Shown here one piece after another: positions 4,765 to 5,640 of a DNA stretch of 64,000 bases. Positions within the stretch are counted from its first letter, which is position 1; each line of letters opens with the position of its first letter. The notes under the pieces were generated by a model, which did no database searches, had not been told where the DNA came from, and saw only the letters and a list, made by a program, of their open reading frames with translations. The position numbers and the translations under genes are program-made. This stretch comes from Fibrobacter sp. UWB5 (lineage in GTDB: Bacteria; Fibrobacterota; Fibrobacteria; Fibrobacterales; Fibrobacteraceae). The stretch is from contig NZ_MWQH01000009.1 in NCBI RefSeq assembly GCF_002210295.1, forward strand, positions 1-64,000, read 5' to 3'.

Positions 4765-5544
4765 GTGCTTGATGTATTGAATCTCAATTTTTCCTTCTAC
4801 GACTGGCTGTTGATTTTCATGGTCACGGCGCTCGGAACCCTGAGTGCCTATTTGAAGGATCCGCAACTTAAAGCGGTCACGGCCACCATTCCCATTCCTT
4901 GCGGTTTTGCCTACATTGCGGTTGGGCTCCCGATGGGGACGGCGAACGCGATTTCGGGATTCATGTGCTTTCTGTATGTGCATATCGTGCGCATTCTCCA
5001 CTACAAGGTCAAGATTCCGATTGTCCCAAGCATTATCGCGGGGCTCGCCTTCTTTGTAGCGCTCGGCACATTCCTGATGCCGCGCATTCCCGATAACGAC
5101 GCCTGGTTCTTGGGCGCTTGCGCTTTTGACTTTGTCGTAGGCGTAGTCATGTTCCAGAAGCAGAGCTACAAATCCGGCGTGCGCTACAAGACTCCGCTCC
5201 CCATCTACATCAAGGCGCCCGCCATTGCGGGCGTTGTTTCGGGACTCATGCTCATCAAGCGCCTGATGGGCGGATTCTGCACGAGTTTCCCGATGATGAA
5301 TTCCATCGTGAGCTACGAGAGCCGCTATTCGCTGGGCGACCAGTGCAGGCAACTTCCGCTGTTCCTGATTGCGGGGCCGCTCATGTTCATCGAAATGCGC
5401 TATATCGAAATCGGTCTCGGACTCAACCACTGGATTGTGCTGTTGTGCGGCTACATCCTGTTTGCCTCCATCTACTGGCCACTGAACAAGGAACTCAAGC
5501 GCCGTAACGAGCGCGCCGAAAAGGCGTATAGTAGTAGAGGTTAG
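4765..5544 (+). CDS. Unknown multi-pass membrane protein
   Basis: This 259-residue protein shows about seven hydrophobic segments, near residues 13-30, 40-75, 85-108, 113-130, 150-170, 195-212 and 222-242, with a basic C-terminal tail. I recognise no family. The GTG start at 4765 has no Shine-Dalgarno and follows a TATATTTA box by 5 nt. Internal starts such as the Met near residue 19 are possible, though that would cut into the first TM segment. The stop codon TAG is also the first three bases of the downstream TAGTTGGTAG repeat. A transport or envelope role is all that can be inferred. Confidence 0.65.
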   Translation: MLDVLNLNFSFYDWLLIFMVTALGTLSAYLKDPQLKAVTATIPIPCGFAYIAVGLPMGTANAISGFMCFLYVHIVRILHYKVKIPIVPSIIAGLAFFVALGTFLMPRIPDNDAWFLGACAFDFVVGVVMFQKQSYKSGVRYKTPLPIYIKAPAIAGVVSGLMLIKRLMGGFCTSFPMMNSIVSYESRYSLGDQCRQLPLFLIAGPLMFIEMRYIEIGLGLNHWIVLLCGYILFASIYWPLNKELKRRNERAEKAYSSRG

Positions 5545-5573
5545 TTGGTAGAACTTAGTTGGTAGAGCTTAGA
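5542..5573. repeat. TAGTTGGTAG direct repeat, two units
   Basis: Two near-identical 15-16-bp units (TAGTTGGTAGAACT, then TAGTTGGTAGAGCT) begin exactly at the stop codon. The AGAACTTAG arm is complementary to the downstream heptamer array. The same arrangement recurs at 23006-23072. Confidence 0.8.
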
Positions 5574-5584
5574 GAGAAGAGAGT

Positions 5585-5640
5585 GTTCTAAGTTCTAAGT
5601 TCTAAGTTCTAAGTTCTAAGTTCTAAGTTCTAAGTTCTAA
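5585..5640. repeat. Heptamer array (GTTCTAA)x8
   Basis: Eight perfect tandem copies of GTTCTAA fill the gap between the membrane-protein gene and the phosphatase lipoprotein gene. Repeat purity suggests recent slippage. The array can pair with the CTTAGAA-type units just upstream. Confidence 0.95.

Follow-up and report, generated by a model that had tools for sequence, protein, structure and literature searches.

A dispersed family of intergenic heptamer repeats in Fibrobacter that is often in phase with TAG stop codons

Cyanobacterial STRR are tandem heptamers located between genes. Intergenic heptamer repeats are known in several phyla. The passages of PMC4679880 that deal with the TAACTGA direct repeats of Beggiatoaceae, cyanobacteria and Bacteroidetes describe them as mostly intergenic, strain-specific heptamers with no evident transfer mechanism. 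According to the same passages (PMC4679880), indels in the TAACTGA repeats of two Cyanothece strains occur mostly in 7-nt steps, and in a Beggiatoa strain most sets are located just upstream of a start, with only one indirect repeat. The sections of PMC4692102 on Xanthomonas GGGAATC and Nostoc GGGGA(C/T)T describe dispersed, mainly intergenic heptamers whose length varies between relatives. These repeats are G-rich and quadruplex-forming and are rare between divergent genes (7-9%); GGGAATC often occurs as inverted pairs, and some of its copies overlap stop codons. A polymerase-slippage idea is cited in those sections for the seven-base period (PMC4692102). Another group consists of the REP, REPIN and GTAG repeats with RAYT, which parts of PMC3733652 describe as dispersed short extragenic hairpins with a TAG-containing foot.

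The window, which is the whole 64,000-nucleotide stretch of Fibrobacter sp. UWB5 DNA that was analyzed, contains two sites at which a composite heptamer array is fused to the stop codon of a gene, as the first-pass annotation had claimed. The TAG stop of the open reading frame (ORF) at 4765-5544 (stop at 5542-5544) is the first TAG of the left arm of site 1, and the TAG stop of the ORF at 19148-23008 (stop at 23006-23008) is the first TAG of the left arm of site 2. The product of the latter ORF, earlier called a TPR lipoprotein, has Pfam matches to TPR, DUF3857 and transglutaminase-core, and that of the former, earlier called a membrane protein, has zero Pfam matches. The features are as follows:

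5542..5572, + strand: left arm of site 1, TAGTTGG TAGAACT TAGTTGG TAGAGCT TAG
5573..5587, + strand: loop of site 1, AGAGAAGAGAGTGTT; the loop at the non-orthologous locus L160 is identical in 14/15 bases
5585..5640, + strand: right arm of site 1, (GTTCTAA)8 without any mismatch; the first GTT is shared with the loop as delimited above
23006..23036, + strand: left arm of site 2, TAGTTGG TAGAGCT TAGTTGG TAGAACT TAG
23037..23050, + strand: loop of site 2
23051..23085, + strand: right arm of site 2, CTAAGTT CTAAGTT CTAAGCT CTACATT CTAATTG, in phase with the CTATATTT that follows
23086..23093, + strand: CTATATTT, a -10-like box that precedes the gene for histidyl-tRNA synthetase, whose ATG is at 23103
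59240..59261, + strand: degenerate one-armed relative (CAGAGCTTAGAACTTAGA), a possible remnant, outside the set of 85 elements described below

TRF assigned period 7, 8 copies and 100% identity to 5585-5640 and period 14, that is, two heptamers, to the left arm. The eight perfect GTTCTAA units claimed earlier were thus found, and the second site has fewer units, as had also been stated, its right arm from 23051 being shorter and degenerate. The 10-mer unit given for the 5' half had to be corrected, as this half consists of alternating heptamers TAGTTGG/TAGARCT; TAGTTGGTAG starts at 5542, 5556, 23006 and 23020 within the window. The complementarity of the arms is borne out by predicted RNA folds that are stronger than those of shuffled sequences. 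The fold of 23006-23082 has -34.7 kcal/mol against a shuffle mean of -15.0 (z -7.1; other strand z -7.5), and that of 5542-5640 has -31.8 kcal/mol against a mean of -20.9 (z -4.2; other strand z -3.4), and both copies beat 200/200 shuffles on either strand. At 23086-23103, and at other loci too, CTATATTT ends only some 9 nt before the ATG, which suggests near-leaderless transcripts in Fibrobacter.

The arrays are not confined to the window. Across the whole 3.36 Mb genome, TAGTTGGTAG has 23 matches (19 places) compared with 3 for a reversed-pattern control, and CTAAGYTCTA has 113 compared with 18. The two-arm pattern TAGARCTTAG-N3-33-CTAAGYTCTA has 23 nested matches at 13 places compared with 0 for the control; this pattern is its own reverse complement, so each match is found on both strands (46 rows). 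The paired arrays are a dispersed repeat family, and these counts against controls exclude the chance pair without further copies that the first-pass annotation had named as the alternative. The 17-mer TAGTTGGTAGARCTTAG is present in 22 of 80 Fibrobacter genomes, including the source genome (G000), and the two-arm pattern is present in 19 of the 80. Outside Fibrobacter, TAGTTGGTAGARCTTAG was not found among 167 genomes sampled across the phylum, which makes one positive genus out of 40. Its counts vary among relatives, with 21 in G000 and 0 in G079, a genome that is 86% complete and has 93% identity to G000 over three genes. Rfam gave 0 matches within the window at the gathering threshold.

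Copies at different loci also resemble each other. Further copies of the 31-base left arm at 23006-23036 are found at unrelated sites, and the loops of 28 sites have a mean best cross-site score of 0.446, compared with a mean of 0.186 and a maximum of 0.267 in 200 base shuffles. From the likeness of the loops and the identity of the left arms, it can therefore be concluded that sequence is shared between loci. The comparison of copy number proposed earlier was possible at site 1, where the orthologous site in RUG10152 (L025) has (GTTCTAA)14 compared with 8 units in the window, a difference made of 7-nt steps. The tRNA-Asn D-arm (L169, 4173-4247) has 12 bases, AGTTGGTAGAGC, in common with the left-arm unit, which may point to its origin or be a coincidence.

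The gene context was examined in 85 elements, each of which has both arms or a TTGG unit. They represent 64 non-orthologous combinations of site and orientation, spread over 63 intergenic regions. This set was drawn from G000, G039, G038, G007 and some others of the 80 genomes; identical-core clusters were counted once, by which some orthologues and short-core copies drop out. Before counting, 15 of 100 clusters were dropped for having no TTGG unit or second arm, among them the single seed L077, which lay inside a called gene. Genes were called with a home-made dicodon caller, which missed at least the ORF at 17044-18321 and may misplace starts. None of the 85 elements lies wholly within a called gene, and 4 share 17-39 nt with the end of one. 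The TTGG unit is confined to one arm in 84/85 elements, L070 having it in both, in a set where TTGG is over-represented by design, many elements having been fetched through the TTGG pattern. With one representative per site, the contexts are co-directional in 15 and 17 (the two orientations), divergent in 15, convergent in 14 and uncalled in 3; L145 was mis-oriented by the script but is divergent and so falls outside the 15 versus 17 count. At the 64 sites, 63 arm ends face a stop, 62 face a start and 3 were assigned to neither. Stops and starts are faced equally and there is no bias in gene orientation; therefore, the element is indifferent to the direction of transcription. This argues against the 3' element proposed in the first-pass annotation, as do the 15 divergent sites among the 61 with a called context. 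In one divergent intergenic region, the element has opposite orientations in L011 (G000) and L185 (G038), which are counted as two of the 64 sites. This suggests independent acquisition.

Among the stops that are faced, one codon is overrepresented. Stop-facing ends within 60 nt have TAG in 31 of 43 cases, TAA in 11 and TGA in 1, compared with a background of 133 TAG among 397 stops; the 43 are what is left of 50 stop-facing ends after the removal of 7 that had no lattice match. The heptamer register includes 22 of the 31 TAG stops, compared with 4.4 expected, and 1 of the 11 TAA stops. On the other side, 6 of 11 occurrences of the -10-like motif CTAT[AC]TT upstream of an ATG keep the register, as do 8 of 16 of the looser CTAN[AC]TTT, which has phase +1 in 6 of 16; the -10 cases are few, and every phase result depends on the home-made gene caller. 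The stop-codon fusion is real, and it would follow from TAG being both the first triplet of the repeat and a common stop. The fusion is probably part of a more general phase lock to the edges of genes. The earlier idea of a mobile or slipping repeat that targets stop codons therefore holds in part: the repeat is dispersed, slips, and is fused to stops non-randomly, but targeting of stops as such is not supported, starts being faced as often. The element is also found without any nearby stop codon.

Filled, half-filled and empty sites were compared in relatives. At the hisS site, in the gap between the TPR gene and hisS, the element is present in G000 and G039, the latter with a further insertion after it. 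In G044, G041 and G076, which lack the element, the gap from stop to ATG is only 17 bp, and CTATATTT is at an unchanged distance from the ATG in all three. This site was readable in 30 of the 77 genomes with a match, of which 8 were aligned and the other 22 have different neighbours or sequence. In G079 and G016 (L195, L199), a GTGTCATCCTGAGC...GCTCAGAATGACA palindrome stands in place of the heptamer element. The divergent site next to what is presumably an epimerase-like gene was readable in 11 of 30 loci. It is filled in G000, G039 and G038, with a length difference of 14 nt between G038 and G039, and empty in G076, G077, G016 and G002. G041 and G044 have heptamers of a different family there, G058 has a left-arm fragment with another repeat, and G079 has unrelated sequence.

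The third site is convergent and adjoins a gene that we take to be CvfB-like; it was readable in 22 of 30 loci, of which 3 were flagged as misread and 9 were aligned. Both arms are present in G000, G039 and G038, only two left-arm units in G076, overlapping stops in G077, G079 and G016, and other heptamers in G044. The sister genomes G076 and G077 (grouped with support 1.0; three genes with 97.0% identity) agree in 98.8 and 96.7% of the sequence on the two flanks of this site. The site is longer in G076 than in G077 by a net 28 bp, two units that end in TTAGTTG. The empty sites of G079 and G016 already read TTAGTTG, and that of G077 reads TTAATTG. The last codon and stop change from N-TAA in G077 to C-TAG in G076, and the junction is no clean insertion. 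By parsimony, the 28-bp difference is a gain in G076 and not a loss in G077; judging from G079 and G016, TTAGTTG may have been the seed for it. The 31-base arm at this site in G076 also occurs at 23006-23036 in the window and elsewhere in G077. Within G076, no donor was found, the one other exact two-unit arm having a slightly different sequence. On the three-gene tree, the presence of the element in G000, G039 and G038 and its absence from G079, G077 and G016 require several gains, losses or transfers. The convergent neighbour ends in VEYVN/VEYTN-TAA in G077, G079, G016 and G076. An array-made stop was considered for this neighbour, which ends in VEYK-TAG in the three filled genomes, and was rejected, as G041 and G044 also have K-TAG without the element. 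The comparisons suggest that repeats may have changed the stop codon and the last residue of some Fibrobacter genes.

Heptamers of other sequence also form many tandem repeats. The window and 44 named loci together provide 55 kb of non-coding DNA with 57 tandem arrays, 28 of them of period 7 and 43 with a period divisible by 7. Coding DNA, 279 kb in all, has 34 arrays, none of period 7 and 8 of period 14 or 21. With many orthologous loci in the set, the counts are not independent and serve as description rather than as a significance test. The reading that tandem repeats are in excess irrespective of their period was rejected, being contradicted by the dominance of period 7 in non-coding DNA. 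The window has a further intergenic heptamer array, unrelated in sequence, at 16737-16768 (AATGTGG AGTGTGG AATGTGA AGTGTGA), and four CTGCTTA heptamer arrays at 71 bp spacing form a higher-order repeat at 2626-2868 of L050. In L022 (about 1545-1610) and L183 (G038), the right arm is broken by a palindrome, CCCACCTAAAGGTGG...CCAAAGGTAA, at a heptamer position common to these two different loci. The palindrome is absent from L165 and L117, which are orthologues of L022, and a related segment is present in L250 and L251; it looks like a separate mobile palindrome.

On balance, it is somewhat probable that the element is one family within a class of intergenic heptamer repeats that extends across the genus Fibrobacter and, taken jointly with this, that array sequence was copied into sites with a short resident match and then resized by slippage, the copying step being inferred. 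New copies would arise by template switching or short gene conversion, through which the array sequence of another locus would be copied onto a short match (TTAGTTG, TAG or CTA). The length of the array would then change by replication slippage in 7-nt steps. Selection would exclude arrays from coding sequence and from the promoter core, and the copied tract could also overwrite a gene end. Dispersal, phase, site polymorphism and the difference in copy number, all of which support this explanation, were observed. Against it, neutral copying does not account for the restriction of TTGG to one arm (84/85), and the similar loops at distant sites also fit a mobile unit. The arrays are most likely tolerated repeat DNA, and no host function is proposed. 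A bolder version can be put forward tentatively, although it is rather doubtful. Here, a transposase-free repeat would spread by microhomology-templated copying with any gene-edge TAG (stop) or CTA (-10 box) as a landing seed. It would grow in 7-nt steps up to the coding or promoter sequence, and species would carry different families at the same sites through re-seeding.

The filled, half-filled and empty sites of Fibrobacter, together with the fixed phase of TAG (that of the -10 box is weaker), should allow copying, transposition and slippage to be told apart, either by mutation accumulation or by comparing these sites directly. The main rival, though unlikely, is a REP/REPIN or MITE-like non-autonomous hairpin unit moved by a transposase in trans. 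Its hairpin shape, dispersed intergenic copies, patchy distribution (22/80 genomes), similar loops at unrelated sites and ends that abut TAG are all to be expected of such a unit, as are the opposite orientations in the one orthologous intergenic region of L011 and L185. GGTAG precedes the inner stem in many copies. However, ends and lengths vary, the left arm stands alone in G076 at the CvfB-like site, and no clear target-site duplication was seen at the three filled/empty sites, where alignments are ambiguous around TAG/CTA. In a screen of 80 genomes, some of them incomplete, with Y1_Tnp (PF01797) as the sole transposase family, this domain, which we take to be RAYT-type, was found in only 1 of 10 element-rich genomes (G066; element-rich meaning at least 10 two-arm matches), compared with 26 of the 70 others, and not in G000. 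G071 and G077, which have 7-8 two-arm matches, do have PF01797. Mobilization by RAYT was rejected on the absence of the domain from 9 of the 10 element-rich genomes. Purely local replication slippage, by which the array would grow from a resident TAG or CTA at each site, is very improbable. It would explain the phase lock to TAG and CTA, the 8 versus 14 units at one site, and the 43/57 non-coding tandem arrays whose period is divisible by 7. It does not lead to the same TAGTTGG/TAGARCT alternation at 64 sites, nor to two extra units in G076 that match sequence elsewhere in the sister G077 and are absent from G077 at that site.

A functional RNA, that is, a 3'-end hairpin, a bidirectional terminator or an mRNA stabilizer, has little probability, although the predicted fold is strong on both strands. 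By eye, L026, L027 and L064 have an intrinsic-terminator-like hairpin in place of the window array, and several loops enclose terminator-like hairpins. In the window, no terminator-like signal was found at 5450-5750, and the sole terminator-like match in a scan of 22920-23160 was at 23096-23108, a position that covers the start of HisRS and is not part of the arms. There is no T-run after the right arm at either window site; on this and on the gene context at the 64 sites, an intrinsic terminator or 3' element was rejected. The divergent location of 15/61 sites, the even orientation relative to genes and the occurrence of the same site without the element in close relatives also argue against a functional RNA. 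Inner-arm variants showed no covariation in 45 pairs, one per site (counts 23, 7, 13 and 2; Fisher p 0.70; modest power), which gives no support to a maintained hairpin with compensatory changes and leaves the earlier idea of folding registers that change with copy number unsupported as a maintained function. A candidate protein-binding array, in which a regulator or nucleoid protein would read TAGNNNN at 7-nt spacing, is scarcely more probable than a functional RNA. The spacing of TAG/CTA stays at 7 nt when other bases vary, and it recurs in the different heptamer family at the epimerase-like site of G041 and G044, but the presence of the element is patchy between close relatives. Copying followed by slippage is the preferred explanation.

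The element has the features of intergenic heptamer repeats, namely tandem units of 7 nt, many loci outside coding sequence, and changes of copy number in 7-nt steps. Its units TAGTTGG, TAGARCT and CTAAGYT match none of the described families TAACTGA or GGGNATC. It probably also differs from the cyanobacterial STRR in sequence and arrangement. Compared with REP/REPIN as the cited parts describe them, it consists of heptamer arrays of variable length, and the RAYT-type domain is missing in 9/10 element-rich genomes. The Xanthomonas and Nostoc repeats, in the sections cited, differ from the Fibrobacter element, which is AT-rich, is found between divergent genes at 15/61 sites, and restricts its alternating second heptamer to a single arm in nearly every copy. 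Like the TAACTGA repeats of the passages cited, it is an intergenic heptamer; it differs from them in the heptamer itself, in its usual two opposed arms, and in facing starts and stops equally. Heptamer kinds are known, and the accessible portions of the open-licence literature gave no report of heptamer or intergenic repeats in Fibrobacter. Therefore, the Fibrobacter element can be classed as a new form within a known kind, an apparently undescribed member of the intergenic heptamer repeat class that is nearest in kind to the TAACTGA and GGGAATC types.
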